NCBI GenBank assembly: GCA_021803345.1
Contig: JAJZLS010000022.1
Location: 1 to 56,570, forward strand
Reading direction: 5' to 3'
DNA: 56,570 bases
Source: Actinomycetes bacterium
GTDB taxonomy: Bacteria; Actinomycetota; Acidimicrobiia; Acidimicrobiales; Acidimicrobiaceae
In this document: one piece after another, positions 15,099 to 32,150 of the stretch
Position numbering within the stretch: the first letter of the stretch is position 1
Layout: every line of letters starts with the position of its first letter
The notes under the pieces: generated by a model
The model's database searches: none
Told to the model about the DNA's origin: nothing
The model's input: the letters and a program-made list of their open reading frames with translations, nothing else
Program-made: the position numbers and the translations under genes

Positions 15099-15112
15099 CG
15101 CCACCGGGGTTT

Positions 15113-15134
15113 CTCCTATCGTCATAGGAGTAAT
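15113..15134 (+). promoter_or_regulatory. Candidate suf operator (inverted repeat) upstream of sufC
   Basis: CTCCTAT-CGTC-ATAGGAG followed by TAAT, 12 bases before the sufC ATG. The CCTAT-N4-ATAGG core and the right half ATAGGAGTAAT match the palindrome upstream of sufB and the half-site upstream of sufD. The position so close to the start suits a repressor site or a site in the 5' leader. No cognate regulator gene is in the window. Confidence 0.6.
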
Positions 15135-15146
15135 AGACTGCTAACT

Positions 15147-15893
15147 ATGCCTACACCTTTATTTGAAGTTAAAGACCTACACGTCACAGCCGAAGGACAA
15201 AGTATCGTTAAGGGACTGTCTCTAACAATCAATAAGGGTGAAGTACACGCAATTATGGGGCCAAACGGTTCTGGCAAGTCAACGTTGGCTAATACTCTTC
15301 TCGGAAACCCAGACTACAAAATAAAATCTGGGCAGATCATTTTCCATGGCGAAGATATATCAGGATGGTCTACTGACGCACGAGCAAAAGCTGGAATGTT
15401 CCTGGCGTTTCAGTATCCTCAGGAAATTGCAGGGGTTTCCGTAATTCAGTTTCTCCGCCAAGCAGTGTCAGCCAGGAAAGCCACTGACATTTCCGCTCTC
15501 GAAATCCGCTTCGAAATGATGGAATGGATGGACAAACTGGGAATGGATCCGTCATTTTCCCAGAGATACCTCAACGAAGGATTTTCCGGCGGAGAAAAAA
15601 AGAGAAATGAAATTCTCCAAATGGCACTTTTAGAACCTGAGATAGCGATACTGGATGAAACTGACTCCGGTTTGGATATAGATGCTTTACGCGTTGTAGC
15701 CAGAGGAGTAAATGAAGTCCGCAAGAAAAACCCAGACCTGGGGGTAGCTCTTATTACCCACTACCAACGAATTCTTGATGAACTGTCCCCAGATTTCGTA
15801 CATATTATGATCGATGGAAACATTGTGGCATCAGGCGGGATGGAGCTCTCAGAAAGGCTGGAATCCGAGGGATACGAAGGATGGCGAAAATGA
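15147..15893 (+). CDS. sufC: Fe-S cluster assembly ATPase SufC (first copy)
   Basis: A 248-residue soluble ABC-type ATPase that works with SufB and SufD in building iron-sulfur clusters. Walker A is MGPNGSGKST, the SufC-type signature is FSGGEKKRNEILQ, Walker B is AILDETDSGLDID, and the H-loop is ALITHYQR. The length is normal. It heads a three-gene operon with sufS and sufU; the sufS ATG overlaps its TGA. A second, divergent SufC is encoded at 21795-22583, so this copy is one of two. Confidence 0.95.
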   Translation: MPTPLFEVKDLHVTAEGQSIVKGLSLTINKGEVHAIMGPNGSGKSTLANTLLGNPDYKIKSGQIIFHGEDISGWSTDARAKAGMFLAFQYPQEIAGVSVIQFLRQAVSARKATDISALEIRFEMMEWMDKLGMDPSFSQRYLNEGFSGGEKKRNEILQMALLEPEIAILDETDSGLDIDALRVVARGVNEVRKKNPDLGVALITHYQRILDELSPDFVHIMIDGNIVASGGMELSERLESEGYEGWRK

Positions 15894-17137
15894 GCAAAAC
15901 CCTGACCACGCAACTGAATGTCGATCAGATCAGAAAAGATTTCCCTATATTCAACCAGCCTGAGGGGAAACCACTTTATTTCCTCGATTCAGGAGCATCA
16001 TCCCAAAAACCTCAATGTGTTCTCGATGCAATGGATAATTATTATTCAACCACTCACGCCAACGTACATCGAGGGGTTTACCACATCGCGGAACAGGCTA
16101 CTGAGCTATACGAGAGTTCCCGAATTAAAGTTGGCAGGTTCATTTCAGCCCCGCATCCGGCCAGAGAAATTCTGTTTAGCAAAAATGCCACTGAATCGCT
16201 CAATCTGTTATCCACCTCGCTGACCAGAAAGCTGCTGAAAACAGGAGACATCGTGGTACTTAGTGAGATGGAGCACCATGCAAATATGGTTCCTTGGCTC
16301 ATAGCAAAGGAACAGTTCGGAATCGAGCTTCGATATATTCCAATCGATGATAACGGCTACTTAATTCTCGACAACATAGACCAGATTCTCAAGGGAGCCA
16401 AAGTTCTCAGCATTACTCTCACCTCCAACGTTCTGGGAACCTTGAATCCAATTTCAGAATTGGCTGAAATGGCCCATAATGAAGGTGCCCTTGTTATCGG
16501 CGACGGCGCCCAGTATGTTCCACATATAAAGACCGATGTGAATACTCTTGGGATTGATTTTTTAGCCATGACTGGTCATAAAATGCTTGGCCCAACCGGA
16601 ATTGGCATGTTGTGGGGCAAATCCCATCTGCTTGAGTTATTACCGCCTTTCATGGGCGGTGGAGATATGATTTCAGATGTGCGCCTGGATGGCTTTACCC
16701 CCAATGAAATCCCATGGAAATTTGAAGCCGGTACGCCACCGATAGCAGAAGCGATAGGACTCGGTGCCGCAATAGACTATCTGGAAAATCTGGGAATGGA
16801 AAATATTAGAGTCCATGAAGTTTCGCTGATGGAGTACGCTTTCGACCAATTAAAGTCAAGGTTTGGCGAAGACATAAAAATTCATGGTCCAACCAACATA
16901 GCCGACAGAAGCGGCGTAATCTCGTTTGAGTTTAAGAACATTCATCCCCACGACGTGTCTCAGATTCTAGATCAAAGCGGAGTCTGCGTTCGAGCTGGCC
17001 ATCATTGCGCCAAGCCACTAATGCGCCATCTGGGAGTCAACGCAACCGCAAGAGCGTCATTTTACATTTACAACCAGCAAGACGATGTCGACGCATTAGT
17101 TGACGCACTGGCCAAGGCTGAAGCCTTTTTTGCCTAG
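15890..17137 (+). CDS. sufS: Cysteine desulfurase SufS
   Basis: A 415-residue PLP-dependent group II cysteine desulfurase that delivers persulfide sulfur for Fe-S assembly. The PLP lysine is in MTGHKMLGPTGIGML, the PLP-contacting His in EMEHHANMVPW, and the active cysteine in VCVRAGHHCAKPLM. I chose the ATG at 15890, which makes a classical ATGA overlap with sufC and leaves GAAGG at a good distance. An in-frame ATG at 15881 is too close to that site. sufU follows after 18 bp. Confidence 0.95.
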   Translation: MSKTLTTQLNVDQIRKDFPIFNQPEGKPLYFLDSGASSQKPQCVLDAMDNYYSTTHANVHRGVYHIAEQATELYESSRIKVGRFISAPHPAREILFSKNATESLNLLSTSLTRKLLKTGDIVVLSEMEHHANMVPWLIAKEQFGIELRYIPIDDNGYLILDNIDQILKGAKVLSITLTSNVLGTLNPISELAEMAHNEGALVIGDGAQYVPHIKTDVNTLGIDFLAMTGHKMLGPTGIGMLWGKSHLLELLPPFMGGGDMISDVRLDGFTPNEIPWKFEAGTPPIAEAIGLGAAIDYLENLGMENIRVHEVSLMEYAFDQLKSRFGEDIKIHGPTNIADRSGVISFEFKNIHPHDVSQILDQSGVCVRAGHHCAKPLMRHLGVNATARASFYIYNQQDDVDALVDALAKAEAFFA

Positions 17138-17155
17138 ATCCCAAAAGGAGTAGAA

Positions 17156-17626
17156 ATGCCCGGTCTGGAAGACCTTTACCGAGAGATAATTCTTGATCAC
17201 TATAAAAACCCAAGGAATGAGGGAGAATTTCCAAGTCCACCAGCTATAAAAGCTGAGGGCCACAACCCTTTGTGCGGCGATGAGCTTACAGTTTATGTCG
17301 TTATGGACGGCGACGCCATAAAAGATATACGAATCTCCGGACAGGGATGTTCAATTTCCAGATCCTCGGCCTCTTTGATGACGGTTGCGGTAAAAGGTAA
17401 AACCCTAGACGAGGTGGATAGGCTGATGAAGATATTTAAATCCATGATGTCGATCTCCACAAATTCAAGCGGCGAAACAGAAGTAATTGAACCCATCGAA
17501 TACTCTGAAAAAGAATTGGGGGAGATGATTGCCCTTCAGGGAGTAGTTAAATTTCCAGTCAGAATCAAATGTGCCACTTTATCCTGGAATACACTGATGC
17601 AGGCCCTAGAAAACAGGTCCAGCTAA
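17156..17626 (+). CDS. sufU: SufU sulfur-transfer/scaffold protein
   Basis: A 156-residue IscU-like zinc protein. The three conserved cysteines are in NPLCGDE, GQGCSISRSSASLM and IKCATLSWNTL. The roughly 20-residue insertion between the second and third cysteine (region KSMMSISTNSSGETEVIEPIEYSE) is typical of SufU as opposed to IscU. In Gram-positive bacteria SufU accepts the persulfide from SufS. An AAAGGAG precedes the ATG. It is last in the sufC-sufS-sufU operon and converges with the secreted protein gene downstream. Confidence 0.93.
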   Translation: MPGLEDLYREIILDHYKNPRNEGEFPSPPAIKAEGHNPLCGDELTVYVVMDGDAIKDIRISGQGCSISRSSASLMTVAVKGKTLDEVDRLMKIFKSMMSISTNSSGETEVIEPIEYSEKELGEMIALQGVVKFPVRIKCATLSWNTLMQALENRSS

Positions 17627-17642
17627 AAACGCCAATTAAGGG

Positions 17643-18854
17643 CTATCCGATAGCGGTTTTCCTAGCAAATACACCTATGAAATCCCTCGCCGTTCCCTCA
17701 AAGTACCTTTGCGGCGGTCGCATCATATCGTAAACCAATTTCGATCCATTTGCCGGGGTCGCGGGTCCGTTATTGGTTGGTGGGTTAAAGTAGAAGTAAT
17801 TAACCCAGGTGGTATTGATATCCATCTCCATCGCCCGCACTGCTCCCGCCCTCTGGAGAATTTTTGCTAAGGTAGCAACGCTAAGTCCAGGCCCAGCGGC
17901 ATAAATAATTGCCCCCGTGCTGGTTACTCCCACCCCTGATCGCCAAACAAGCACGCTATTACCCACTGTAGCTCCCCACTGAGCATAGTTGGGAGAATAT
18001 ACTCCGGGAGTAATCTTGCCGTTATCGAGTATCAGGGAAAGGTTCTGCCGTACTGAAACCACATTTGGAGTAAGCGCCTGGCTCCCTCCCCATTTCACAA
18101 CATTTGCAGTTCCATTGGAGTAGATTACAAAAGAGGCCTGACCTTTGACCAAAGGATAAGCTGTTCGGCCATTTGAATAATACCCACCCATTGCCCCATG
18201 CATTCTGAAACCTGAGTTAAAGGCTGCCACTAACGATTTGGCCTGGGTAGAGTTAATCGGACCCATATTAGGCCATCCACCTCCGCCCGGTTCCTGACCT
18301 CCCGCAAATAGAGTAAAGGAAAGTAGCTTAGGATTCATCCAGGCCAGCCCTGCCACCAGAGAGGTGTGGACTGGATCGGGCCTCATTGTGGTGACATAAA
18401 GTCCATGCACACCATTGGTTGTTCGCCCTTCGGGCTGCCAGACTCCCTCTCCTGGCAAAGCGGGAGATACAAATGGTTTTACATTTTTAGGAACCTGGGA
18501 ATTAGCACCAGTTCCTGACACACCAGATACATGAGTTTTGGTATCTAAAATAGCCCCTTTGGGAGGTAAGCCTCCCTTGGGTGGCTGATGCCAGGTATAC
18601 CATACGTCCTCAGCCACCCTAAGGAACTGAGCACCGCCGTGACCTCGAATCCATTCCACTGCCTTAAGCGGAACGCTCTGCTGATTGGCTGCAGTAAGGG
18701 CATTACCAAAAGACCATCCGAAGCTGGAAAGCAACACCGCCAAAACCAGCAAGATGGCAATCCTTGCCCGTCTCGATCTCACCCGAAACCGTCGACGGCG
18801 TCGTGGTTGCGGGTTGGTTGGTTGGTTGGTCCGTATGTCTGGAAAAGTTTTCAC
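17643..18854 (-). CDS. Membrane-anchored or secreted phosphodiester-glycosidase (NAGPA-like) protein
   Basis: A 403-residue protein. The first 30 residues include RRRRRFRVRSRRARIA and are followed by one hydrophobic segment (about 31-54), so it is a signal anchor or signal peptide. The C-terminal half (from about residue 205) has patterns of the NAGPA/DUF2233 phosphodiester glycosidase family: AAFNSGFRMHGAMGGYYSNG, SLILDNGK, IYAAGPGLSV and RAMEMDINTTWVNYFYF. It probably acts on a cell-envelope glycan phosphodiester; the substrate is inferred only from the family. Codons 9-16 are encoded by a tetranucleotide repeat. Confidence 0.8.
   Translation of the reverse strand: MKTFPDIRTNQPTNPQPRRRRRFRVRSRRARIAILLVLAVLLSSFGWSFGNALTAANQQSVPLKAVEWIRGHGGAQFLRVAEDVWYTWHQPPKGGLPPKGAILDTKTHVSGVSGTGANSQVPKNVKPFVSPALPGEGVWQPEGRTTNGVHGLYVTTMRPDPVHTSLVAGLAWMNPKLLSFTLFAGGQEPGGGGWPNMGPINSTQAKSLVAAFNSGFRMHGAMGGYYSNGRTAYPLVKGQASFVIYSNGTANVVKWGGSQALTPNVVSVRQNLSLILDNGKITPGVYSPNYAQWGATVGNSVLVWRSGVGVTSTGAIIYAAGPGLSVATLAKILQRAGAVRAMEMDINTTWVNYFYFNPPTNNGPATPANGSKLVYDMMRPPQRYFEGTARDFIGVFARKTAIG
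18812..18830. repeat. GGTT tetranucleotide repeat, 4.75 copies, at the start of a coding region
   Basis: GGTT is repeated four full times plus GGT, with no interruption. It lies about codons 9-16 of the secreted glycosidase-like gene, encoding the NQPTNPQP region on the minus strand. Loss or gain of one unit would shift the frame. Confidence 0.8.
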
Positions 18855-18916
18855 GTAGCCTTAAATAGTATTGACTAAAATTAACAAATTGATAAGTGAG
18901 CTTACCACCCTACGGC

Positions 18917-20461
18917 TCAAACCGTCGGTATCCTAACTATAAAGCGTGCCCCGCTGGGGCTATCTGGGTTATCTGAAACCTCCACCGTTCCACCATGCGC
19001 CTCCACAATTGTACGTACGATCGATAAGCCAAGACCGGATCCGCCTTCATCTCTGGATCTGGCCTCGTCCAACCTGGTGAACCGCTCAAATATTTTTTCT
19101 CGAAGTTCAGGCGGTATCCCACGTCCATCATCTGCAATTTCAAGGTGCACCACACCCTGACTTTTAAAGAGTACAAAGGTAACCTTACTTCTCGCATGCC
19201 TGGCGGCATTGTTTGCCAGGTTGCGCACCACTCGAAGGAGGTAGTGAGGATCACCCGTTACTCGGCCTCCACTTACAGCCTTAGTATCCACACTCAATAC
19301 TCCAGACAGCCTTATCCTAGCTGCCTCAGCTAAAACGATTTCATCAAGGTCAACCGGAAGCAACGTATGAACCAAAACTTTTCCTGAATCAGCTCTAGCC
19401 AATATAAGAAGGTCTTCAACAATTCGCTGCATTCTTCGCGATTCTTCCAACGCATCGGCAGCGGTCTGCTGCCAATCAGTTCCGTCGGGATGCAAAAGGC
19501 CTACCTCCAATTCAGTTTGGATCACAGAGAGAGGACTTCTGAGTTCATGAGAAGCATCGGCAATAAAGCGCTTTGATCGCTCAGCTGAACTATCCAAACG
19601 TTCTAACATCTGATTCATAGTTACAGCCAACTCGGATATTTCATCCTTTGAAGGCGGGACCGAAATTCTATTATGGAGATTACTTCCGGTTATAGATGCT
19701 ACTTCCCGGTTGATGCGCTCGACTGGTTTGAGCGCTCTGGCAGTGAGAAATATTACAAGAAATGCCAATACAGCTAAAAGAAGTGGAAAAACAATCGCTA
19801 TCACCCTGACTACGGTCACTGATGACTGATCAACAGTAGCCAGTGAAGCCAGCGCCACCACCCTAAAAACCGAATGATAGTGTTTTATTACGCTTTTACC
19901 GGTTGCAGAAGAGACTGACGTCCCACTAAAACCCGTTCCCGTGGAACCGTTCAACCTCAGAGTTGGACCAACCGGCTGGCTGTCCACGCTAAGGTTAATT
20001 CCCCTTCCACTCCCCACTACAGTTGACACCAGTACCGCCCGCCGATCGGCTTCATCAGGGTCGCTAAGTGCGAAACGCTTGGCATTGCTGACAAACGACA
20101 CAGTACTCTTTGGACTATTGAATGAAGACAGAAGCGACAGCTGGCCAGCAATATTAGCAGTTGAGGCTACGACATTATTTTGCCGATCCAGTACCTGAAC
20201 TGATACGTCGCTCCGGGGAAGAGGTAACGGGTTGGTAATCGATCCGGAATTGACCAACGCAGCAATTGCAGACTCTTGGGTTCTAGTCTGATTGACTACC
20301 AAATTTTGAAGCTGTGACCTTAAGGTTCCAAACAATATCTGTGACGCTACAAATAAAGCCACCCCCACCACCAGTACTGCGGCGAGGGTGATTTTGAATC
20401 TAACCGAATAAAAAAGACGTTGGAACCAGGAATGGCTACGAAACCCCTCGTCCAATACCAC
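18917..20461 (-). CDS. Sensor histidine kinase
   Basis: A 514-residue membrane kinase. Helix 1 is about 24-46, an extracytoplasmic sensor region of about 165 residues follows, and helix 2 is about 218-240. A HAMP linker follows, then HisKA with phospho-acceptor His305 in ADASHELRSPL, and a HATPase domain with NLANNAARHA, DDGRGIPPE and GGSGLGLSIV. The sensor domain is not recognisable. The GTG start is 4 bp from the stop of the response regulator gene, so the pair is an operon with the regulator first. Confidence 0.93.
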   Translation of the reverse strand: MVLDEGFRSHSWFQRLFYSVRFKITLAAVLVVGVALFVASQILFGTLRSQLQNLVVNQTRTQESAIAALVNSGSITNPLPLPRSDVSVQVLDRQNNVVASTANIAGQLSLLSSFNSPKSTVSFVSNAKRFALSDPDEADRRAVLVSTVVGSGRGINLSVDSQPVGPTLRLNGSTGTGFSGTSVSSATGKSVIKHYHSVFRVVALASLATVDQSSVTVVRVIAIVFPLLLAVLAFLVIFLTARALKPVERINREVASITGSNLHNRISVPPSKDEISELAVTMNQMLERLDSSAERSKRFIADASHELRSPLSVIQTELEVGLLHPDGTDWQQTAADALEESRRMQRIVEDLLILARADSGKVLVHTLLPVDLDEIVLAEAARIRLSGVLSVDTKAVSGGRVTGDPHYLLRVVRNLANNAARHARSKVTFVLFKSQGVVHLEIADDGRGIPPELREKIFERFTRLDEARSRDEGGSGLGLSIVRTIVEAHGGTVEVSDNPDSPSGARFIVRIPTV

Positions 20462-20465
20462 CTAT

Positions 20466-21143
20466 CTATCCACCATTTTCTTCCAACAGATACCCCACCC
20501 CACGTATGGTTCGAATACCCTTCTTGTCGAATGGGGTGTCAATCTTTTTCCGTAAATACCCAATGTAAACTTCAACGATGTTGGAGTCGCCCTCAAAATC
20601 GTAATCCCACACGTGCTCCAGAATGGTCTTTTTGGTCAGCACCTCACCTTTTCGGCGAATTAGAAGCTCAAGCAGGGAAAACTCTCTGGATGTAAGGACT
20701 ATATCGACTGAACCTCTGGTGACCGAATGACTAGCTGGGTCAAGGTGAAGATCGCCGGCGGAAAGGACCACAGGGCGCTCCGTTGCCCCTCTTCTAAGCA
20801 GAGCCCTCATGCGGGCCAGTAAAACAGTGAATGAAAATGGCTTCGATAGAAAATCATCAGCGCCGGTATCGAGCGACTCCGCCTCGTCGAGCTCCCCATC
20901 CTTGGCGGTCAGCATTAAGATTGGAGTCCACACCTCGCGTTCGCGCAGGGTACCACATATTTTGAACCCATTAGTACCTGGAAGCATAATGTCCAAAAGG
21001 ATAAGATCGTAGGGGTTTTCAGTTGCCATCCAAAGACCCTCTGTCCCATTTTGGATTAGATCGACCGCGAATCCTTCAGCTTCAAGCCCACGTTTGAGGG
21101 CTTCACCTAACCGCACTTCATCCTCTATGACAAGCACCCTCAT
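20466..21143 (-). CDS. OmpR/PhoB-family response regulator
   Basis: A 225-residue regulator. The receiver domain has acidic residues in IEDEV, phospho-acceptor Asp51 in ILLDIMLPG and Lys in LSKPFSF. The C-terminal winged helix has LTSREFSLLELLIRRKGEVL and ends RTIRGVGYLLEE. It is the partner of the kinase that follows on the same strand. The 197-bp gap to the divergent ferredoxin gene should hold its promoter. Confidence 0.94.
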   Translation of the reverse strand: MRVLVIEDEVRLGEALKRGLEAEGFAVDLIQNGTEGLWMATENPYDLILLDIMLPGTNGFKICGTLREREVWTPILMLTAKDGELDEAESLDTGADDFLSKPFSFTVLLARMRALLRRGATERPVVLSAGDLHLDPASHSVTRGSVDIVLTSREFSLLELLIRRKGEVLTKKTILEHVWDYDFEGDSNIVEVYIGYLRKKIDTPFDKKGIRTIRGVGYLLEENGG

Positions 21144-21340
21144 AACTGCCGCCTCTCTAAAATCTCAGTGACACTTCGGATACAACTCATCCATATCCAG
21201 ACTCGAAATATTCACGCTCTCAACCGCACTAACCTATTCGAATATTTGTTAGCAAAAGATAAGAAAAATTTCCAATAGAACAACTTTCAATTTAGTCCAA
21301 AAAATGCAATGATCTTATATAGATAATCAGGAGGAAACCA

Positions 21341-21538: not shown

Positions 21539-21614
21539 TCTAGTTACAGAACTGTTCCGGTCCTGCGCCTGCAGATTTGAAAAGATCCTTTTAGGGTTTA
21601 AGAAGTCGCAAAGG

Positions 21615-21794: not shown

Positions 21795-22583
21795 TTACAG
21801 GGGAAATCCGAAAGGGTCGCCCACCGCAGCTTTATTTGCCACTTCAGACTCGCCAAATTCAGCGTATCCAGTCAGCTCCAGTTCATTTGCAAGCTCAGGA
21901 CCACCAGTCTTGACGATTTCCCCCTTTATCAGAACATGAACTTTGTCTGGACGTAGCTCCCGGAGCAGCCTGGAGTAGTGAGTGATGGCCAACACCCCCA
22001 AGTCATTTTCGTTAGTGCCTGCTTCCACTCTCCTCGAAACGTCCCGAAGAGCATCTATATCTAATCCGGAATCTATTTCATCCAGGATTGCGAACTTGGG
22101 ACTCAGCACTGCAAGCTGAACCATCTCGTTTCGTTTCTTCTCACCGCCAGAAAAATCTACGTTCAAAGAACGGCGCAGCATCTGAACCGGAAGTCCAATT
22201 CGATGACTCTCCGCCATCATCAAATCGCTCAACCCGAAACGATCCCGTTCCATGGCTACATATGCAGCACTAAGAGCGCTTTCCATAGTCACACCTGGCA
22301 CTTCCGAGGGATACTGGGAAACTAGAAACAGACCTGCTTGTGCTCGTTTCCAAGTGGGGAGGGCGAGAAGGTCCAGATCATCTAAAAATATAGTTCCAGT
22401 GGTTACTGTGTAGCCTGGTTTGCCCATCAAGACATGGGACAGCGTTGATTTGCCCGATCCATTTGGACCCATCAACGCGTGAACCTCACCACTTTTAATC
22501 TCAAGATTTATTCCCCGAAGGATCTCCAGTTCCCCGACATTTGCGTGTAGATTTTCCACCCGAAGGACATGTTTGGTACTCAA
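21795..22583 (-). CDS. sufC: Fe-S cluster assembly ATPase SufC, second divergent copy
   Basis: A 262-residue SufC-type ATPase: Walker A MGPNGSGKST, signature FSGGEKKRNEMVQ, Walker B AILDEIDSGLDIDALRD and H-loop AITHYSRLL. It differs from the first copy throughout the middle region (WKRAQAGLFLVSQYPSEVPGV versus ARAKAGMFLAFQYPQEIAGV) and has a 20-residue C-terminal extension. The TTG start overlaps the stop of the Rieske gene. Being in one operon with sufD, this copy is the more obvious partner of SufB and SufD. Confidence 0.93.
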   Translation of the reverse strand: MSTKHVLRVENLHANVGELEILRGINLEIKSGEVHALMGPNGSGKSTLSHVLMGKPGYTVTTGTIFLDDLDLLALPTWKRAQAGLFLVSQYPSEVPGVTMESALSAAYVAMERDRFGLSDLMMAESHRIGLPVQMLRRSLNVDFSGGEKKRNEMVQLAVLSPKFAILDEIDSGLDIDALRDVSRRVEAGTNENDLGVLAITHYSRLLRELRPDKVHVLIKGEIVKTGGPELANELELTGYAEFGESEVANKAAVGDPFGFPL

Positions 22584-22912
22584 CTCACGACCACCATTAC
22601 CCTTTCGCCTTCTATAACGACGTCATAGACAGGAACTGCTTTTGTTGCCGGCAAGCAGGTTGGCTTACCGGTAACCAGTGAGAATGTCGAGCCGTGTTTC
22701 CAGCATTCAATCTCCTTTTCCTCCGCATACACTTCTCCCTCGGCGAGCGAGTAGTTGGCATGGGTGCACCTGTCCCCTATTGCGTAAAAACTCTCCTCGA
22801 TGCGAACCAAAGCGATTCGGTGACCATCAACATCAAATCGTGCAGCGGTGCCACTTTTTACTTCGTCAATGTGGCAGAGGTCAATTTTCTGACTCAACGT
22901 AGTTCCTCCCAT
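22580..22912 (-). CDS. Rieske [2Fe-2S] ferredoxin-like protein in the suf operon
   Basis: A 110-residue Rieske protein. The cluster ligands are Cys49 and His51 in DRCTHANYSL and Cys70 and His73 in IECWKHGSTF. It resembles the ferredoxin component of non-heme iron dioxygenases, but no oxygenase is nearby. It is sandwiched between sufD (19-base overlap) and sufC2 (4-base overlap), a placement known from other actinobacterial suf operons. It may be an electron donor in cluster assembly; that role is an inference. Confidence 0.9.
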   Translation of the reverse strand: MGGTTLSQKIDLCHIDEVKSGTAARFDVDGHRIALVRIEESFYAIGDRCTHANYSLAEGEVYAEEKEIECWKHGSTFSLVTGKPTCLPATKAVPVYDVVIEGERVMVVVS

Positions 22913-24117
22913 TTTCTGGCTGCCAGCTCGAATAAAACTTCCTTGACCCCTCCAATATCCGACCTTTCCGCCATCTCTGCAAAAAATCCACCCACTATAA
23001 GCCTTTGAACTGATTCCGGATCAATTCCCCTACTTTCAAGGTAATAACTCTGCTCTTGGTCAATTGGACCGACTGATGAAGCATGGCTGCATCGTACGTC
23101 ATTTTCCTGAATATCAAGATTGGGTACAGAGTCAGCCCTTGCACCTTGAGACAGCACAAGATTCTTATTAGTCTGAAAAGCATCAGTTGAAGTCGCACCT
23201 TTATCAACTTTGATTAGGCCCGAATAGACCAGATGCGCCCTGTCTGCCGCTGCTCCCTTGAAATACAGTTCGCTTCGTCCATTTTTGGCGCTGTGCTCTT
23301 GGAGCGTGCGAAAATCGAGGACCTGGTCCCCATTGCCAAAATAGGCCGCGTTGAGATTTGACCTGGCGCCGGCACCGGCGATTGTGGAGGTTGTAAATAT
23401 CCTCGCATAGCTTCCGCCGGAAACGATTGACATCGATTTAAAGCTTGCCTCGCTTTCGAGACGCGATATTTGGTGTCCTATCATTTGAGTCCGGGCACCT
23501 AAATCCTCAATTAAAAGATACTCACATGTAGAGTTCGATTCCTGATAAACCTTGGTTACAGGTACCACGAGTATTTCTGCCTGATCGGACGAAACAAGCA
23601 CCTCTATAACTTTCACCCTGGTACCAGCCTCAACTTTGATGCAAAGGTTGGGAAAGACGACCTTATGATCACCATCTAAATATCTGACAATCATCAGCGG
23701 CTGATCCGTATCAAAATCGTTCTTGACGATCAAAGTGACCGGTGACGACAGTAAAGCGTTAAGATTATAAAAAATATCCGCCCCGGAAAAATCGTGCGAT
23801 ATGTCCTGGGGATCAAAATCCTCCAAGACTACCCCTCTTGGCACCTCCCTGCTGATCTCCACACCACGATTACCCGAAGTGATGGTCACGGCTTGGGGAT
23901 GAAATTTATTAACGATATCAAACAGCGCTGAATCTAGAACTTTACGATCTGAGGTTCCGACAGCTGGACCGTATTCATTTAACTCGAGCTCATCAATTTT
24001 TGAATATCGCCACTCTTCGATAGAAGTAGTAGGCATCTTGGCTGCAATGATAGCTTGCTTTAGTTGGTCCAGACTGGAATCTCGTCGAGTTCTAACCGCG
24101 TCTTCCAGGCTATCCAT
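22894..24117 (-). CDS. sufD: Fe-S cluster assembly protein SufD
   Basis: A 407-residue SufB/SufD-family protein with the right-handed beta-helix core of the SufBCD scaffold. The C-terminal part has TSTDAFQTNKNLVLSQGARA, NDVRCSHASSVGPIDQEQ and YLESRGIDPE, matching the SufD/SufB C-terminal signature. The N-terminal part (SIEEWRYSKIDEL) is the SufD-type WRYT-like start. It heads a sufD-Rieske-sufC2 operon. An AAGGAG lies on its strand ahead of the ATG. Confidence 0.92.
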   Translation of the reverse strand: MDSLEDAVRTRRDSSLDQLKQAIIAAKMPTTSIEEWRYSKIDELELNEYGPAVGTSDRKVLDSALFDIVNKFHPQAVTITSGNRGVEISREVPRGVVLEDFDPQDISHDFSGADIFYNLNALLSSPVTLIVKNDFDTDQPLMIVRYLDGDHKVVFPNLCIKVEAGTRVKVIEVLVSSDQAEILVVPVTKVYQESNSTCEYLLIEDLGARTQMIGHQISRLESEASFKSMSIVSGGSYARIFTTSTIAGAGARSNLNAAYFGNGDQVLDFRTLQEHSAKNGRSELYFKGAAADRAHLVYSGLIKVDKGATSTDAFQTNKNLVLSQGARADSVPNLDIQENDVRCSHASSVGPIDQEQSYYLESRGIDPESVQRLIVGGFFAEMAERSDIGGVKEVLFELAARKWEELR

Positions 24118-24227
24118 CCATGCTTGTGAGAGTTGAATTTTTACTCCTTAGCTAATGCGAAATGTATGAACACTACCGGGGTGTGCAAAGATAAATTCTA
24201 ATCGAGAAAAGGTAATTTATAACAAAC

Positions 24228-24241
24228 AGATAGGAATAATT
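24228..24241 (+). promoter_or_regulatory. Candidate suf operator half-site between sufD and the ECH-like gene
   Basis: AGATAGGAATAATT is an exact 14-base copy of one half of the 28-bp palindrome upstream of sufB. It lies 110 bp upstream of sufD and 84 bp upstream of the divergent enoyl-CoA-hydratase-like start. No left half is visible at the expected spacing. Confidence 0.5.
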
Positions 24242-24324
24242 ACATGCAAGTGCCGCAAAGCTCTTAATTTCCCTTGTTTGATTATTCTCCCGCTTACAAT
24301 CCGGAGTGTATTAGCATCTTTCCC

Positions 24325-25137
24325 ATGACTTCAAACCAAGAGATTCTGTGCGAACCGTCATCATCGGGAATCGGATACATCTGGTTAGCGCGCGAATCGA
24401 AAGCTAACGCTATGGGATCCGAATTTTTTGCCTTATTACCAGAGGTTGTTAAAAAGATGGAAAACGATGATCAAGTTCGGGTAATAATCCTCAGCAGCAC
24501 TTCCAACAATTTCTCAACTGGTATTGATTTGGATTTACTCAACGAGTTAACCGCTGAACAGTCCGATGACGGATATCAAATGGTCAAGTCCAAAATAAAA
24601 GAATTCCAAGCATCTCTCACGAGCCTGGCCCAATGCGGAAAACCGGTCATAGCCGCCATAAGTGGCTTCTGTATTGGAGGCGGACTGGATCTTGCCTGCT
24701 GTGCTGATCTCCGACTCTGTTCCCGTGACGCTGTATTTTCTGTCAGAGAAACACGTCTCGGAATGATACCCGATCTTGGTTCGATTCAACGGTTGGCAAG
24801 AATCCTGTCTCGCGGACAACTTTCTGAAATTGCTCTGACTGGCGACGACTTTTCAGCTGTAAAGGCCTTAGAAATCGGTCTGGTCGACCATCTCTGTGAT
24901 GATAAAACTAAACTGCTGGAACAAGCCAATGTGTTAGCATTGCGAATTGCAGAAAACTCTCCCGCAGCCATTAAAGGCATAAAAAGGAGTATCGAAAACA
25001 GTTTAGATATTGGATTAACTGAAGAACTCGATTTTGCAGCAGAACTAAATAGCCGTCAGCTTCTGTCTGCCGAGTTTAGGAGATATAAGAAAGATTATCT
25101 TAGTCAAATCCAAAACGAGCGACGTTTGACCAGGTAG
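24325..25137 (+). CDS. Enoyl-CoA hydratase/isomerase family, dienoyl-CoA isomerase-like
   Basis: A 270-residue crotonase-fold protein. The oxyanion-hole patterns are NNFSTGIDLDLL and ISGFCIGGGLDLACCADLRL. Downstream, VRETRLGMIPDLGSIQRL places Glu142 and Asp150 where delta(3,5)-delta(2,4)-dienoyl-CoA isomerases carry their acidic pair, so isomerisation of unsaturated fatty acyl-CoA is more likely than hydration. I chose the ATG at 24325. A TTG 51 bases upstream would add 17 residues not expected in the family. Confidence 0.85.
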   Translation: MTSNQEILCEPSSSGIGYIWLARESKANAMGSEFFALLPEVVKKMENDDQVRVIILSSTSNNFSTGIDLDLLNELTAEQSDDGYQMVKSKIKEFQASLTSLAQCGKPVIAAISGFCIGGGLDLACCADLRLCSRDAVFSVRETRLGMIPDLGSIQRLARILSRGQLSEIALTGDDFSAVKALEIGLVDHLCDDKTKLLEQANVLALRIAENSPAAIKGIKRSIENSLDIGLTEELDFAAELNSRQLLSAEFRRYKKDYLSQIQNERRLTR

Positions 25138-25141
25138 TTAC

Positions 25142-25474: not shown

Positions 25475-25726
25475 TACAACCTACCTCACAGGGTTAGTGT
25501 GCCTCATACCATCTTAGATTACAGGCTCTGCTAACAGAGAGTTTTTCAAGCAACCATTGGAGGCATCTTCCGATGACGACCTTTATATGGGAAAACATGC
25601 TGGACTCGACTTCAATAACCACAATCGCTCTCCTGAAATGTTTTAAAAGATACTCAGAGCATCCCCAGCATTCTCAAAGCTTCACCGTACAGAATGTAAC
25701 TCGTAACATAAGTCGCAACAATTCGG

Positions 25727-27283
25727 GTGGTAAAAGTGGATAACGATCAGGATAAGAACTCAGCTGAAAATCAGCAACCAGAAGACGTCGGCGCCATTAA
25801 TCCAACAAACGAGGGTTCGGACCTCCATCAGCCTGAGTCGAGCATTTACAACCAGAATCAGCTCGATCAAACCGAGCAGTTCAGTGGGATGGGAGATGAC
25901 CAACCCACGGAGCCTAGATTCGATACAGAATCCGATAAAACGGAAGAGGTATCAGTAATTCCACAGTCACCATCTGGACACGAATCGTATCCTTCTACCC
26001 CAAAACCATTCCCGGAGCCTGATTACCCCCTCTCAGATTCCGGGAATGGTTCCCCCCTTTCTGGCTCTGAAAACACTGGAAGCAAGAAACAAAAGAAAAT
26101 CAGAGTGAAAAAACAAAGAAAACCACTCTCGCCTGTAGCCAAAGCCGCAGCCATTGCTGCGGTGGTTTCGCTTATACTCGGAGGTTCAGCAGGAGCCCTT
26201 ACAGCAAAGCTGACCTCAAATAACAACAGCAGCAGCAGCCCCGTACAGACTCCCACCTTTAGCAAAAATTCATCGGTTATAGCTTCCCCTACCGGCATTC
26301 AGGCAATTCTTTCCAAGGTCGAGCCGGCGGTTGTTGATATTCAAACCAGCGGCACCGTGAACCAGGGCGGGTTTTTCGGAGGCACCTCCAGTTTTCAAGC
26401 AGCTGGTACTGGAATGATCATCTCGTCCAACGGTGAAGTACTTACAAATAATCATGTCATAGCAAATGCAAGTACAATCAAAGTTCAGTTATTCAACCAG
26501 ACAAAGCTCTATAACGCGGTTGTAGTCGGCACCGATCCCACTCACGATGTGGCAGTAATTAAAATTGAAGGTGTTTCCAAGCTGCCGACAGTAAGTTTTG
26601 GGAAATCCTCCGCACTGCAAGTTGGTGACTCAGTGGTGGCGGTTGGAAACGCACTTGCACTTCAAGGTCTTCCCACTGTTACTCAAGGAATAGTTTCAGC
26701 CCTCCACAGGTCGATCACCACCAGCCCGAATGGGATTACCAGCTCAACGACACTCTCTGACATGATTCAAACTGATGCCCCAATTAATCCAGGTAACTCC
26801 GGCGGACCTTTGGTTGATTCAAACGGTCAGGTTATCGGTATGAATACAGCTATAATCTCAGGTACCGGGTCGCAGCCTGCACAAAACATAGGATTTGCAG
26901 AAGCTATTGACTCGGTGCTTCCGGTCGTACATCAAATACAAACGCATCCCAATTCAAGCAATGGCACTATCACCAATGGAAAGGCCTTCCTGGGCGTAGG
27001 TGTTGAGACCTTGACATCTCAAATTGCGAACCAAATTGGCTTACCGAGCAACCTAAAAGGTGTTCTTGTGGCACAGGTCGTACCAGGGTCACCAGCAAAT
27101 AACGCGGGAATAACTGCTGGTTCGGTCATTACCAAGGTTGATTCGACCAAAGTGACTACCGCCTCTCAACTTGTAAAAATAATTCAACAAAAATCGCCAG
27201 GTACCACAGTGACAATTTATTGGACAACTAGCAACGGATCTGGTTCTGCGGTTGTAACCTTAGGAAGTGCACCCACCGCATGA
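25727..27283 (+). CDS. HtrA/DegP-type membrane-anchored serine protease with PDZ domain
   Basis: A 518-residue trypsin-like protease. An acidic, Pro/Ser-rich cytoplasmic region (1-115) is followed by a basic stretch KKQKKIRVKKQRK and one membrane helix (about 136-160). The protease domain has His243 in LTNNHVIANAS, Asp274 in DPTHDVAVIKI and Ser358 in NPGNSGGPLV. A PDZ domain covers about 415-500 (GVLVAQVVPGSPANNAGI). The actinobacterial HtrA type degrades or senses misfolded envelope proteins. A response regulator and kinase follow on the same strand, like the mycobacterial mprAB-pepD arrangement. The start is GTG at 25727; GTG at 25736 is also possible. Confidence 0.93.
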   Translation: MVKVDNDQDKNSAENQQPEDVGAINPTNEGSDLHQPESSIYNQNQLDQTEQFSGMGDDQPTEPRFDTESDKTEEVSVIPQSPSGHESYPSTPKPFPEPDYPLSDSGNGSPLSGSENTGSKKQKKIRVKKQRKPLSPVAKAAAIAAVVSLILGGSAGALTAKLTSNNNSSSSPVQTPTFSKNSSVIASPTGIQAILSKVEPAVVDIQTSGTVNQGGFFGGTSSFQAAGTGMIISSNGEVLTNNHVIANASTIKVQLFNQTKLYNAVVVGTDPTHDVAVIKIEGVSKLPTVSFGKSSALQVGDSVVAVGNALALQGLPTVTQGIVSALHRSITTSPNGITSSTTLSDMIQTDAPINPGNSGGPLVDSNGQVIGMNTAIISGTGSQPAQNIGFAEAIDSVLPVVHQIQTHPNSSNGTITNGKAFLGVGVETLTSQIANQIGLPSNLKGVLVAQVVPGSPANNAGITAGSVITKVDSTKVTTASQLVKIIQQKSPGTTVTIYWTTSNGSGSAVVTLGSAPTA

Positions 27284-27330
27284 GTGCCAACATTACGTAC
27301 TTTCTAAACATATAGAGAAGGCAATCGAAA

Positions 27331-28056
27331 ATGCAACCGTCGCAGAAAAATGGAGACGCAGGCCGGATCCTGGTTGTGGATGATGAAACTCCGATAACCG
27401 AGCTTGTAACGATGGCTTTACGGTACGAGGGTTTCCAAATGGAACAGGCTCACTCTGGTCGTGAAGCAATTGACAAAGTGAGCCAGTTCCATCCAGACCT
27501 TATGATACTTGACATTATGATGCCGGATCTGGATGGATATGAAGTGGCGCGCAGACTACGCCAAGAAAATCAGCAAGTCCCAATAATATTTTTAACCGCG
27601 AAAGATGCGACAGAAGACAAAGTTCGAGGTCTTGAGATGGGTGGCGATGACTACGTTACCAAGCCTTTCAGCCTAGAAGAACTTTCCGCCAGAGTGGCAG
27701 CGATTCTAAGACGGACCAAGGGTGACAAGTCGGTATCTTCCCGATTGGTATTCGAAGATCTTGAACTAGATGAAGAGACCAGGGAAGTCTACAGAGGCGG
27801 AAAAGTCATTGAACTAACCGCAACTGAATTTAGACTGTTGAGATTTTTAATGTTGAACGCCAGACGTGTCGTTTCCAAAGCTCAAATACTTGACCACGTT
27901 TGGGAGTACGACTTCGGTGGAGATGCCAACATAGTGGAGACCTATATTTCCTATCTGCGTAAAAAGATAGGTTCCACCGATGACTCTCCACTAATTAAAA
28001 CAATAAGAGGTGTCGGCTACTCACTTCGGAGCAATTCCAGTTCAAAAGCAGGTTAG
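27331..28056 (+). CDS. OmpR-family response regulator (MprA/TcrX-like)
   Basis: A 241-residue regulator. The receiver has ILVVDDETP, phospho-acceptor Asp61 in MILDIMMPD and Lys in YVTKPFSL. The C-terminal winged helix has LTATEFRLLRFLMLNARRVV, DHVWEYDFGGDANIVETYISYLRKK split across it, and ends RGVGYSLR. It lies 47 bp after the HtrA gene and 7 bp before the kinase, in one probable envelope-stress operon. Confidence 0.94.
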   Translation: MQPSQKNGDAGRILVVDDETPITELVTMALRYEGFQMEQAHSGREAIDKVSQFHPDLMILDIMMPDLDGYEVARRLRQENQQVPIIFLTAKDATEDKVRGLEMGGDDYVTKPFSLEELSARVAAILRRTKGDKSVSSRLVFEDLELDEETREVYRGGKVIELTATEFRLLRFLMLNARRVVSKAQILDHVWEYDFGGDANIVETYISYLRKKIGSTDDSPLIKTIRGVGYSLRSNSSSKAG

Positions 28057-28063
28057 AACCTAG

Positions 28064-29590
28064 GTGCGAATGAAGAAACTGTCGCTAAAGGCCCGACTGG
28101 TGGTCACAGTGACAACCTTACTATTTGTGGGCGTTTTCATTTCCGATATCGCAACATATTCCGCCCTTAAGTCCTTTCTTGTGTCAAAACTTGACCAACA
28201 ACTTGCAGCAGCGGTTCATCCAGCTTCCAGAGCCCTAGACAGAGCTATGCTTGGTCAGATTCAAAATGAAGCAGCCTTTTCTTTCGTACCTTACGGCAGC
28301 TACGGCGAATTAATTAATAAAAATGGAGCCTCATTCATAGCTGCATTTGTTCAAAGTCCAAACCAGGCCGGGTCACCCCCCAACATACCCCAGCTCAAAC
28401 AAAAGGGGCTTCCGCTACCCCTGGATGTCCCATTCAATGTGGGAAGCATAGATGATCCAACAATGAATTACCGGGTTATCGCGGAAAAAGACCCTACAAC
28501 CGGGGCTACCACTATCCTGGCAATACCTTTGACTGGGGTTACAGATACTCTCTCCAGACTAATATTAATCGAGTTGCTCGTATCTCTCGGTGCCTTGATT
28601 ATCCTTGTAGGCAGCGGGTGGTATCTGGTGTCTCTTGGTCTTAAACCCCTGGATAAGATGGCGGAAACGGCGAACCGAATTTCAGAAGGAGACCTTGGGG
28701 CAAGAGTTGAAACCAATTCAGGCCAGGGAACCGAAGTGGCGCGCCTGGCAAGAGCATTGAACTCGATGCTTAGTCAGCTAGTAACCGCTTTAGAGCGCCG
28801 CGGTCAGTCCGAAGCAAAACTCAGAAGGTTTGTTGCCGACGCCTCTCATGAACTTAGAACCCCACTTACCTCCATTCGAGGCTATGCAGAGCTGGTAAGA
28901 AATCGATCCGCGTTTCTTGACGAGTCGGAAACAAAAAGGGCTATGGAAAGAATTGAATCCGAATCGATCCGAATGGGTAGCCTGGTCGAAGACCTTTTAC
29001 TCCTAGCCAGACTGGATCAGAATCGTCCGATGGAAAAAGTTCCTGTAGATCTATCCGAAATTGCAGTTGACCTCGTCCAGGACTTTCATACCGTCGATCC
29101 GTGTCGAAACATAGAAACCGAATTGGAACAGGACCTGTGGGTGATGGGCGATAGAAATCGCCTCTCGCAAGTGGTCGCCAATCTGCTCTCAAATGTGCGC
29201 TACCACACTCCGGACTGCACGCCTGCCAAAATAACAGCATCCAAAATAACTGCTGAGCAGCTCGATCATTTTCAAGGAATACCGGTGACCCGTGCCGATG
29301 ACAATGATTTCGGAATTAATCTCCAAAATGAATTCGAAATCATCAGATTTACAGTCTCCGATAGCGGTCCAGGAATCGATGAAGCTTCTCTCAAAAATGT
29401 ATTTGAAAGATTTTACCGAACAGAATCATCTAGATCCAGAGACTCCGGGGGAACCGGGCTTGGACTCTCGCTCGTGGCATCTATCGTTAAAGCTCACAAC
29501 GGAAGCGCCTGGGTGGCAAGCAATGGCATCGGAAGTGGATCCACATTTGGCTTCGATCTGATCCTCGACGTTAGCAATGATGGCGAATAA
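28064..29590 (+). CDS. Sensor histidine kinase (MprB/TcrY-like)
   Basis: A 508-residue membrane kinase. Helices are about 12-34 and 166-190 with an extracytoplasmic sensor between them. HAMP is about 190-242, HisKA has His262 in ADASHELRTPLTSIRGYAEL, and HATPase motifs are NLLSNVRYHTP, DSGPGIDEA and GGTGLGLSLV. About 40 residues are inserted between the N and G1 boxes (ITAEQLDHFQGIPVTRADDN region), longer than usual. GTG start. It is the cognate kinase of the regulator just upstream. Confidence 0.93.
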   Translation: MRMKKLSLKARLVVTVTTLLFVGVFISDIATYSALKSFLVSKLDQQLAAAVHPASRALDRAMLGQIQNEAAFSFVPYGSYGELINKNGASFIAAFVQSPNQAGSPPNIPQLKQKGLPLPLDVPFNVGSIDDPTMNYRVIAEKDPTTGATTILAIPLTGVTDTLSRLILIELLVSLGALIILVGSGWYLVSLGLKPLDKMAETANRISEGDLGARVETNSGQGTEVARLARALNSMLSQLVTALERRGQSEAKLRRFVADASHELRTPLTSIRGYAELVRNRSAFLDESETKRAMERIESESIRMGSLVEDLLLLARLDQNRPMEKVPVDLSEIAVDLVQDFHTVDPCRNIETELEQDLWVMGDRNRLSQVVANLLSNVRYHTPDCTPAKITASKITAEQLDHFQGIPVTRADDNDFGINLQNEFEIIRFTVSDSGPGIDEASLKNVFERFYRTESSRSRDSGGTGLGLSLVASIVKAHNGSAWVASNGIGSGSTFGFDLILDVSNDGE

Positions 29591-29732
29591 AATTCAGTTT
29601 GGTTAAAGAAATCCTCATATAAGGTTACTTTCACCGACTCCAGATATTGAAATCGAAATAAATTGGATCACTTTTTGCATTAAATTATCCCAACCAGTGG
29701 ATAGCTGGTAAAAAATTTGCAAGACTCTTCGC

Positions 29733-30494
29733 ATGGAGCTAAGCAATCTTAAACAGCATTTCAAAAAAGAAGTCCAAACTTTCAGCAACCTATGCCAGTC
29801 GACTTTAGATCATGCAGTGCCGACTTGTCCCGGATGGACGGTGCAGGATCTGATCGAACATCTCGGTACCGTACACAGACGAGCAGCAGCTCGAGTTGGA
29901 TCAGTAACAGATCCAACCAGCTTTGAATTGGATATCCCAAATGATTCGCAGGAGATTTTAAACTGGTTCGAAAAAGGTTGGCAAGAACTTTATGAGATCT
30001 TCGAATCCAACGATTCAGATTATCCCGCCTGGAACTGGACAGGGACCAACCTGACACTTGGATGGATGATCCGTCGACAAGCCCACGAAGCGGCAATTCA
30101 TCGATACGACGCCGAACTGGCACAGATGGGTCTTCCGAATTTAAATTCATTCAAGTCATTGCCGGCAGAATCACTTCCCTTCGGTTTTGACCCTGACTTT
30201 GCGGTAGACGGCTTAAATGAAAGACTGGAGGTGTCCATAGGAGGAAAACCCCACCTTAAAGCAAACCTCCCAGGTTCAATTCACCTCCATGCAACTGACG
30301 CCGACGCAGAGTGGACTATTACCATAACTGAAGGAATCGTTACAGTTGCAAGAGACCACCAGAAGGCCGATGCGGCAATTCGAGCTACTGCATCAGAGCT
30401 TTACCTTTGGAGCTGGGATAGGTTGCCGGTTGAAATACTTGAGCACTTTGGCAATATCGATGTGATCGAGGCCTGGAAGAAGCTGCCCGGATGA
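29733..30494 (+). CDS. Maleylpyruvate isomerase family mycothiol-dependent enzyme
   Basis: A 253-residue protein with the DinB-like four-helix N-terminal domain and a C-terminal SCP2-like domain. The opening pattern TCPGWTVQDLIEHLGTVHRRAA, with His43 and His48, and RRQAHEAAIHRYDAEL, with His118 and His123, are typical of the actinobacterial family; these histidines likely bind a divalent metal. Members use or are thought to use mycothiol. The substrate is unknown. This protein is one of the reasons for the actinobacterial assignment. Confidence 0.85.
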   Translation: MELSNLKQHFKKEVQTFSNLCQSTLDHAVPTCPGWTVQDLIEHLGTVHRRAAARVGSVTDPTSFELDIPNDSQEILNWFEKGWQELYEIFESNDSDYPAWNWTGTNLTLGWMIRRQAHEAAIHRYDAELAQMGLPNLNSFKSLPAESLPFGFDPDFAVDGLNERLEVSIGGKPHLKANLPGSIHLHATDADAEWTITITEGIVTVARDHQKADAAIRATASELYLWSWDRLPVEILEHFGNIDVIEAWKKLPG

Positions 30495-30582
30495 GGCGGA
30501 CGGGCAATCACATTCTCAAAATTCCCCTATGTACTCAGATACCAGTTGCTAGGGGCACCAATTTTGAAATACGGCTAGGAAT

Positions 30583-30622
30583 TGTCGAGATGCTCAAGCC
30601 TAAAGACCTGAGCATCTCGACA
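30583..30622. terminator. Inverted repeat between convergent genes
   Basis: Fourteen-base arms TGTCGAGATGCTCA and TGAGCATCTCGACA pair perfectly around a 12-base loop. It lies between the ends of the maleylpyruvate-isomerase-like gene and sufB, so it may terminate both strands. No T-run is present on either strand. The base of the stem, TGTCGAG, is the same as in the terminator at 21615-21648. Confidence 0.55.
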
Positions 30623-30651
30623 TAGCTACAAATTACTGCTTTAAGATTGTT

Positions 30652-32052
30652 TTACCCTATTGAGCCATCCATTTGTAATTCTATGAGACGGCTCCATTCC
30701 ACTGCATACTCCATCGGAAGTGTTCTTGTAATTGGCTCGATAAACCCGTTTACAATCAAACTCATTGCCTGAGACTCTGAAAGTCCTCGGGACATAAGGT
30801 AGAAGAGCTGATCATCTCCAACTTTTGATACGGTGGCTTCATGACCAATCTGGGCGTCTCTCTCCTCCACTTCCATATATGGTTTTGTCTCAGAAATTGA
30901 GTAGTCATCAAGCAACAGTGCGTCACACCTTACAAAACTTTTTGAGCCTGTGGCACCCTGATCCACATGAACCAAGCCCCGGTAAGTGGAAGTTCCACCA
31001 TCTTTAGATATGGATTTGGAAACAATTGTTGAGGTAGTTTCTGGAGCTGCATGGACCATTTTGGCTCCTGCATCTTGATGTTGCCCTTCGCCCGCATAAG
31101 CTACCGAGAGTACCTCTCCCGAGGCCTTGGGTCCAACCAGATAGACCGCAGGATACTTCATCGTCAGACGCGAACCAATGTTACCGTCGATCCATTCGAC
31201 TCTTGCCTCTGCCTCAGCTCGAGCCCTCTTTGTCACAAGGTTGTAAACATTGTTAGACCAGTTCTGGATGGTGGTATACGTAATCCGGGCCCCAGGCTTT
31301 GCAATCAGCTCTACAACTGCCGAGTGCAACGAATCGGTACTGTAAACGGGTGCAGAGCAGCCCTCAATATAGTGAACCTGAGAACCCTCATCCGCAATAA
31401 TCAGGGTTCTTTCAAATTGCCCCATGTTCTCCGCATTTATACGGAAATAGGCTTGAAGCGGCATCTCAACCTTAACTCCAGGCGGCACGTAAATAAATGA
31501 TCCACCCGACCATACGGCGCTGTTCAGTGCGGCAAACTTATTGTCATTAGGAGGAATGACGGTACCAAAATAGGAACGAACAATCTCTGGGTACTCTCTA
31601 AGCGCAGTATCCATGTCGGTAAATATCACACCCTGAGTCTCAAGATCCTCACGGTTTTTGTGATACACCACTTCGGACTCATACTGAGCTGTCACTCCTG
31701 ATAGATACTTTCGTTCTGCCTCAGGGATACCGAGCTTTTCGTACGTACGCTTGACTGACTCAGGCAACTGATCCCATGAGTTAACTTGCTTCTCGGTAGG
31801 CTTGATGTAGTAAAAAATATCTTGAAAGTCAAGATCAGGCATGTTAACCGCAAACCAGGGAGCCATAGGCTTTTTCTCAAAATAGCGCAGTGAACGCAAC
31901 CGGAAGGTACGCATCCACTCGGGCTCCCCCTTCATCCATGACATTTCCTTGACTATTTCTTCGTTTAGTCCCTTCTTGGGCTTGAAAACATAGTCCTCAA
32001 CGTCAGACCATCCGAGTTGGTATTTGCCAAGATCTAGATCAGCTGTAGACAT
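30652..32052 (-). CDS. sufB: Fe-S cluster assembly protein SufB
   Basis: A 466-residue core subunit of the SufBCD scaffold. Typical SufB stretches are [39 protein letters not shown], the cysteine motif [27 protein letters not shown], and the C-terminal [11 protein letters not shown]...[17 protein letters not shown] chose the ATG at 32052, which has AAAGGCGG at a good distance; an upstream in-frame start at 32085 adds 11 unlikely residues. It stands alone, separate from sufD and both sufC genes, downstream of a strong palindrome. Confidence 0.95.
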
Positions 32053-32088
32053 ACTTGATCCGCCTTTAAAGATTTCGAAAACCACTTA

Positions 32089-32104
32089 TAGGTTTATTTA
32101 CCTA
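32089..32104. promoter_or_regulatory. Inverted repeat TAGGT-N6-ACCTA in the sufB upstream region
   Basis: TAGGT and ACCTA flank TTATTT, 37 bases upstream of the sufB ATG and inside the likely promoter or leader. The half-sites resemble those of IdeR/DtxR iron-regulator boxes (TAGGT-N7-ACCTA), but the spacing is one base short. Confidence 0.3.
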
Positions 32105-32122
32105 CATTCTAAAGCACTAATC

Positions 32123-32150
32123 AATTATTCCTATCTAGATAGGAATAATT
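32123..32150. promoter_or_regulatory. Perfect 28-bp palindrome upstream of sufB, candidate suf operator
   Basis: AATTATTCCTATCT followed directly by its exact complement AGATAGGAATAATT. It lies 71 bp upstream of the sufB ATG. The right half is repeated exactly at 24228-24241 upstream of sufD, and the CCTAT-N4-ATAGG core with ATAGGAGTAAT recurs at 15113-15134 upstream of sufC. A homodimeric regulator binding here is the simplest reading. Confidence 0.7.

Follow-up and report, generated by a model that had tools for sequence, protein, structure and literature searches.

The stretch of DNA analyzed here, called the window throughout, comprises 56,570 nucleotides of contig JAJZLS010000022.1 from an Actinomycetes bacterium of the family Acidimicrobiaceae (assembly GCA_021803345.1). 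It carries three separate suf loci for iron-sulfur (Fe-S) cluster assembly, each preceded by a copy of one motif that belongs to a 26-bp inverted repeat, a putative operator. The first locus, on the plus strand, holds sufC (Fe-S assembly ATPase, copy 1; 15147-15893; TIGR01978, 321 bits), sufS (15881-17137; a class-V aminotransferase, PF00266, E = 8e-134, named as the cysteine desulfurase from its position) and sufU (17156-17626; NifU_N domain, PF01592, E = 7e-23). On the minus strand lie the sufD operon, with sufD itself (22894-24117; PF01458, E = 8e-64), a gene for a Rieske-type ferredoxin (22580-22912; PF00355) and a second sufC copy (21795-22583; TIGR01978, 280 bits, cut-off 213), and sufB (30652-32085, probable ATG at 32052; PF01458, E = 6e-88). 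The window therefore encodes two SufC paralogues, one with sufS-sufU and the other with sufD and the Rieske ferredoxin, both scoring above the TIGR01978 cut-off.

A previous sequence-only reading had placed the motif ATAGGARTAAT at 15124-15134 (sufC), 24230-24240 (sufD) and 32139-32149 (sufB); all three copies are present at these positions, and a further copy in reverse orientation lies at 32124-32134. The perfect 28-bp palindrome AATTATTCCTATCTAGATAGGAATAATT that it described upstream of sufB (32123-32150) and the sequence CTCCTAT-CGTC-ATAGGAG upstream of sufC (15113-15130) were likewise found. At sufD the 14-base exact match to the sufB site, AGATAGGAATAATT, was confirmed, but the statement that only one half of the repeat is kept was not, as the other half has diverged without being wholly lost. 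The sites were scored with a weight matrix built from 60 hand-picked sites of the window's family, from which near-duplicates and weak sites, including the window's own sufD site, were excluded. The putative 26-bp operators of sufC-sufS-sufU (15109-15134) and of sufB (32124-32149) each reached 31.0 bits, while the putative sufD operator (24215-24240; ATTATT-CCTAT-CTGT-TTGTT-ATAAAT on the minus strand), with one canonical half (ATTATTCCTAT), reached 7.4 bits and ranks third in the window.

Exact CCTAT-N4-ATAGG occurs twice in the window, each time at a suf promoter, and two copies were found in none of 200 Markov sequences of window length (mean 0.04). The whole genome holds three, at sufC, at sufB and within one coding sequence (Dop-like by eye). 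Matches to the motif with two mismatches were no more frequent than expected by chance, and over ten genomes of the window's genus the bare pattern was hardly enriched relative to a reversed control (28 versus 19 copies; three versus six in the window's genome), 15 of the 28 copies preceding sufB (1), sufC (6) or nfu (8). Since the degenerate motif and the bare pattern are both near chance or control levels, the evidence must come from position, flanks and conservation; genome-wide counting of the bare pattern was discarded as uninformative.

Conservation and spread of the site

In the window's family, represented by 43 genomes of eight genera (here g1, the window's own, to g8), the element upstream of sufB, sufC and sufD is the 26-bp inverted repeat ATTnnT-ACTAT-N4-ATAGT-AnnAAT. 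The family consensus of its core is ACTAT-N4-ATAGT; in the window's genus and in some other genera the variant CCTAT/ATAGG is frequent. The sequences ATAGGARTAAT and CCTAT-N4-ATAGG singled out by the sequence-only reading are thus real, but they are a fragment and a variant of a longer palindrome. Sites of at least 15 bits precede sufB in 34 of 35 loci, sufC in 34 of 34 and sufD in 21 of 34, counts that describe the family and do not test the motif, as many of these loci trained the matrix. Loci L250 (sufB), L064 and L083 (both sufC) were left out for lack of upstream sequence, and the sufB places of genomes G015 and G019 and the sufD place of G011 are not in the counts either. The misses were one sufB locus (L247) and 13 sufD loci, ten from the window's genus, two from g5 (9.5 and 10.4 bits) and one from g2 (the last three being L217, L218 and L224). 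Outside the window's genus the full site precedes sufD in 21 of 24 loci; at the sufD place of nine genus-mates the repeat appears, by eye, to be altered in a common manner. An enoyl-CoA hydratase gene (24274-25137) is divergent from sufD in the window. A neighbour of this sort is also divergent from sufD in genera g4 and g8 (L277-L279), where the operator separates the two genes.

The spread of the site beyond the training set was determined in the best 80 of a larger number of loci obtained by a SufB scan of a species-level genome collection. Most of the first 47 (L087-L133) bear the label Acidimicrobiia, Acidimicrobiales or Actinomycetota, and a few have other submitter labels. The site precedes sufB in 39 of these 47, including loci whose G+C content reaches 73%, and in none of the other 33 (L134-L166), which include Actinomarina, OCS155-cluster, Chloroflexi, Cyanobacteria-labelled and SufR-bearing Actinomycetes loci. 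Among the eight misses are L126, which has about 10 bp of upstream sequence and was counted as a miss, and L111, where the site is weak. All 50 sites of at least 15 bits in 1.32 Mb belong to L087-L133, at sufB, sufC or sufD; after shuffling in 50-base blocks a single match of at least 10 bits was obtained. Locus L113 has two operators in tandem (9920 and 9957) before one sufB.

A profile scan (E <= 2) was performed on 20 of the 43 family genomes, chosen by hand, scoring the best 150 first-look candidates of each, merging both strands of a place and accepting distances of -20 to 350 nt from a gene. It yielded 69 places, 60 of which are at sufB (20), sufC (18), sufD (12) or nfu (10); the sufD place of G025 was assigned by reading its locus (L278), and an identity of 71% with the G024 sufD bears this out. 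The nine others comprise two places between mrp/apbC and a gene for a SufR-like protein, six inside open reading frames (ORFs) and one other intergenic place. At E <= 0.1, 52 of 53 places precede sufB, sufC, sufD or nfu, and the 53rd is sufR/mrp; both nfu and sufR/mrp were absent from the training set. The sequence-only reading had made its proposal depend on conservation of the motif upstream of orthologous suf genes and on its scarcity before unrelated ones, and both were found: the site stands before suf genes within the family and out of sample, and 62 of the 69 places are at Fe-S genes when sufR/mrp is counted.

The nfu gene encodes a NifU C-terminal scaffold (PF01106). Of 42 nfu loci found, 30 were read and 25 of these showed a site of at least 16 bits, 41-90 nt from the start of the query. 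No nfu site was found in the window's genome or in the g4, g7 and g8 loci read; where genus-mates have their nfu site the window's genome has a decayed look-alike, seen by eye and unscored by the matrix. These comparative data indicate that the site is a real and widespread operator of an Fe-S regulon in the Acidimicrobiia, its regulatory role being predicted from sequence.

Promoter layout and mode of action

A predicted -10 element, TAGACT (15134-15139, plus strand), lies 7 nt before the ATG of sufC. In all 32 sufC loci compared, a TAnnnT sequence follows the site, and in 31 it is 6-9 nt before the start; shuffled sequences gave means of 11.9 for its presence and 2.2 for this placing, with maxima of 19 and 7. 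The sufC message is probably leaderless, and the palindrome would lie ahead of the predicted transcript start. For sufB, TAGAAT (32106-32111, minus strand) is predicted as the -10 element 18 nt from the operator core. Of 34 sufB loci compared, 21 gave a TAnnnT pick, which in 18 cases lies at a distance of 18-21 nt from the core. For sufD a possible -10 element, also TAGAAT (24195-24200, minus strand), was recognized by eye 20 nt from the operator core.

This layout bears on whether the palindrome might act at the RNA level as a hairpin, in a leader, a terminator or a riboswitch-like element, as a perfect inverted repeat near the sufC start might suggest. However, the -10-like element is between the palindrome and the sufC start codon far more regularly than in shuffled sequences, so that the palindrome would be outside the mRNA and act there as DNA. 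The best -10 element of sufB is also downstream of the repeat, although less firmly, and the conserved feature is the sequence itself, beyond pairing alone. An RNA hairpin was rejected on the -10 positions at sufC, and we consider it extremely improbable. The distance from site to -10 element at sufC varies (5, 12, 15, 17 and 22 nt), which suits a repressor covering the promoter better than an activator, and the site at sufC would most simply be a repressor site.

Candidate readers of the site

A mycobacterial SufR query detected a distant SufR homologue in 30 of the 43 family genomes, including that of the window, where the ORF is intact (G000:C18, locus L356:1516-2343); the match in G023 is doubtful (27%) and the genes of G019 and G022 are at contig edges. 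The gene is divergent from mrp in 27 of 30 loci, the other three being two cut by contig ends and the doubtful match; mrp belongs to the NUBPL/ApbC type of Fe-S carriers (PF10609). Beside mrp and the sufR-like gene, several loci (L357-L360, L364, L367, L368) have a recurrent gene with the sequence RLPPGQYxTDRFPVLHAG, oxidoreductase-like by eye. Cysteines C225, C238 and C271 are invariant in 16 aligned proteins (12 from the family, one outside homologue and three of SufR type), and three cysteines of Rv1460 are named as predicted cluster ligands in the accessible part of PMC6034842. The window's genome thus encodes a SufR homologue with a winged helix-turn-helix (wHTH) domain and the three cluster cysteines (TIGR02702, E = 5e-8), whose score against the TIGR02702 SufR equivalog model is 32.9 bits, the cut-off being 178.8. 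The sequence-only reading had called for a regulator gene whose own promoter has the site. The sufR-like gene has this property in nine of the 27 genomes with readable upstream sequence, namely six of seven in g1, three of three in g3 and none of 17 elsewhere.

The candidate resembles SufR of Synechocystis, Streptomyces avermitilis, Corynebacterium and Mycobacterium in combining a wHTH domain with three C-terminal cysteines that are conserved, in the even symmetry of a 14-bp inner inverted repeat on suf promoters and, in two genera but not in the others read, in a site at the promoter of the regulator gene. It differs in that its operator would be ACTAT-N4-ATAGT with outer ATT/AAT arms and not CAAC-N6-GTTG, the SufR operator according to the accessible parts of PMC8593673 and PMC11995493. 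It is also unlinked to suf, paired with mrp and well below the TIGR02702 cut-off, and its targets would be dispersed and include nfu. Among the loci examined, L140 alone has a sufR-like gene near suf, where it is divergent from and adjoins sufB; the other genes of this kind near suf encode SufR proper and belong to other lineages. A canonical SufR beside suf was sought by tblastn in L087-L133, at most 10 kb each side of sufB, and none was found. Beyond the first 47 loci, the promoters of 20 genes of SufR type were scanned; none has an ACTAT-type site and two have exact CAAC-N6-GTTG (one of the 20, in L162, has almost no upstream sequence). Because operator sequence, equivalog score and gene neighbourhood all differ from those of SufR, we do not claim membership of the SufR regulon. 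No description of an ACTAT-N4-ATAGT operator was found in the literature searched, which left out most subscription papers, and a search on Acidimicrobiia and SufR found no paper.

We favour, with some confidence, the reading that the motif serves a single Fe-S regulon as operator, with the diverged SufR-like protein recognizing it as a repressor. Several observations weigh against it. Exact CAAC-N6-GTTG is absent from all 103 suf upstream regions of the family (0 of 35 for sufB, 0 of 34 for sufC, 0 of 34 for sufD) and appears with one mismatch in six (1, 3 and 2, respectively), in line with the sequence-only reading, which had found the site unlike that of mycobacterial SufR. The SufR-like protein was detected, with a distant query, in 30 of 43 genomes; 17 of the 27 genomes with readable upstream sequence (g2 and g4-g8) have no site at its gene, and the copy at the window's own sufR-like promoter has decayed to 2.1 bits. 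The target of the site between the two genes could be mrp rather than sufR. The -10 picks at sufB lend modest support, as 200 shuffles (mean 11.6) had a maximum of 21, equal to the observed number, and those at sufD (5 of 18) stay at the chance level (mean of 4.7 in shuffles). Finally, of the 46 informative loci in L087-L133, six have no recognizable site and L111 has a weak one only (9.4 bits).

Type 1 sites of IscR, a Rrf2 protein, have AT-rich outer arms and inner repeats and are odd-centred. Such a protein, RrfB (G000:C42, L005:1432-1905), might be the reader instead, with SufR and mrp as mere members of the regulon. RrfB is of the IscR type (TIGR02010, E = 2e-28, 98.9 bits, below the cut-off of 207.6), and its closest solved structure is 4cic, a BadM/Rrf2 regulator which we take to be Thermincola IscR. 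It is widespread and highly conserved: among 51 sequences (matches of at least 60% identity, cut at the first stop, first residue set to M), every residue of GDFxxPHxxGACxHEGQC has a conservation of at least 90%. Over 47 genomes reached through the loci, 26 have both site and RrfB, five the site only, four RrfB only and 12 neither (Fisher p = 2e-4), presence being a match of at least 150 bits, a threshold chosen by us, and two matches containing a stop; within L087-L133, however, the association vanishes (26/5/4/2, p = 0.32). In the four Actinomarina loci and one OCS155-cluster locus without a site (L134-L138), the genomes gave no RrfB match either.

The AT-rich outer arms and inner repeat of the site do resemble those of IscR type 1, but the ACT blocks, the spacing and the even centre, compared by eye with the type 1 consensus, do not. 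The arms and inner repeat also resemble the Rrf2 site of RisR of Myxococcus xanthus, in the accessible part of PMC9973013 GAC-N7-GTC with AT-rich flanks; there too a common palindrome stands ahead of separate Fe-S assembly operons, with a core unlike ACTAT-N4-ATAGT. Like the proposed regulator, IscR coordinates Fe-S assembly genes including nfuA, as stated in the accessible part of PMC4055776. Against RrfB, its gene is unlinked and has no site of at least 15 bits within 300 bp upstream in any of 51 loci (best 0.4 bits), and the protein keeps two of the three IscR cluster cysteines (C-x5-C plus a conserved His). Furthermore, five site-bearing genomes, one of 4.8 Mb, gave no RrfB, although the genomes may be incomplete. 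We regard RrfB as a possible but unlikely reader.

In the window's genome the promoter of a second Rrf2 gene, rrfA, carries ACTATACATATAGT, with tandem inverted repeats upstream, and in genus g3 loci rrfA is two genes from nfu. Its product (L006:1453-2487) has three cysteines and a Rrf2 domain followed by a C-terminal extension without a Pfam match. That RrfA reads the site is nevertheless very unlikely: the repeat at rrfA of the window's genome scores only 6.7 bits and has no outer arms, several orthologues have another palindrome-like sequence upstream (TTAG-N7-CTAA, by eye), none of the five g6 genomes gave an rrfA-type match although several have suf sites, and G035 (95% complete) apparently has sites and lacks rrfA. 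The TTAG-N7-CTAA-like repeat is found upstream of rrfA in several genera (L168-L195) and is perhaps RrfA's own operator.

At the promoters of the sufR-like gene and of rrfB the site is in neither case present in every genus, as might be expected if another, unlinked transcription factor were the reader. The 69 places of the scan (20 genomes, best 150 candidates each), however, revealed no other regulator behind a strong site, the neighbours of one intergenic place not being identified; such a factor appears improbable.

Proposed regulon and its meaning

The proposal that a shared site coordinates the dispersed suf loci, made by the sequence-only reading, is supported by the comparative data, and the regulation itself can be sketched by analogy: the regulon may work like that of SufR or IscR. 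A dimeric winged-helix repressor would bind the 26-bp inverted repeat, which would overlap or adjoin the promoters of sufB, sufC-sufS-sufU and sufD-(Rieske)-sufC2 and, in relatives, also those of nfu and sufR/mrp. When clusters are plentiful the repressor would block transcription, and on losing its own cluster it would free these promoters. The reader would be the diverged SufR-like protein whose gene lies back to back with mrp.

With about an even chance, in our estimate, a SufR paralogue of the Acidimicrobiia has changed its recognition helix (LHPNVARHHLDKL) together with its operator (ACTAT-N4-ATAGT for CAAC-N6-GTTG), moved from suf to mrp, and now holds the dispersed suf, nfu and mrp genes in trans in a class-wide Fe-S regulon. 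For a class that is widespread and largely uncultured, these results supply a concrete operator, a list of targets and two candidate regulators by name, and the pairing of operator and regulator is open to in vitro work that needs no more than short DNA and a single purified protein. They also suggest how a regulon may hold together after its operon has broken up.

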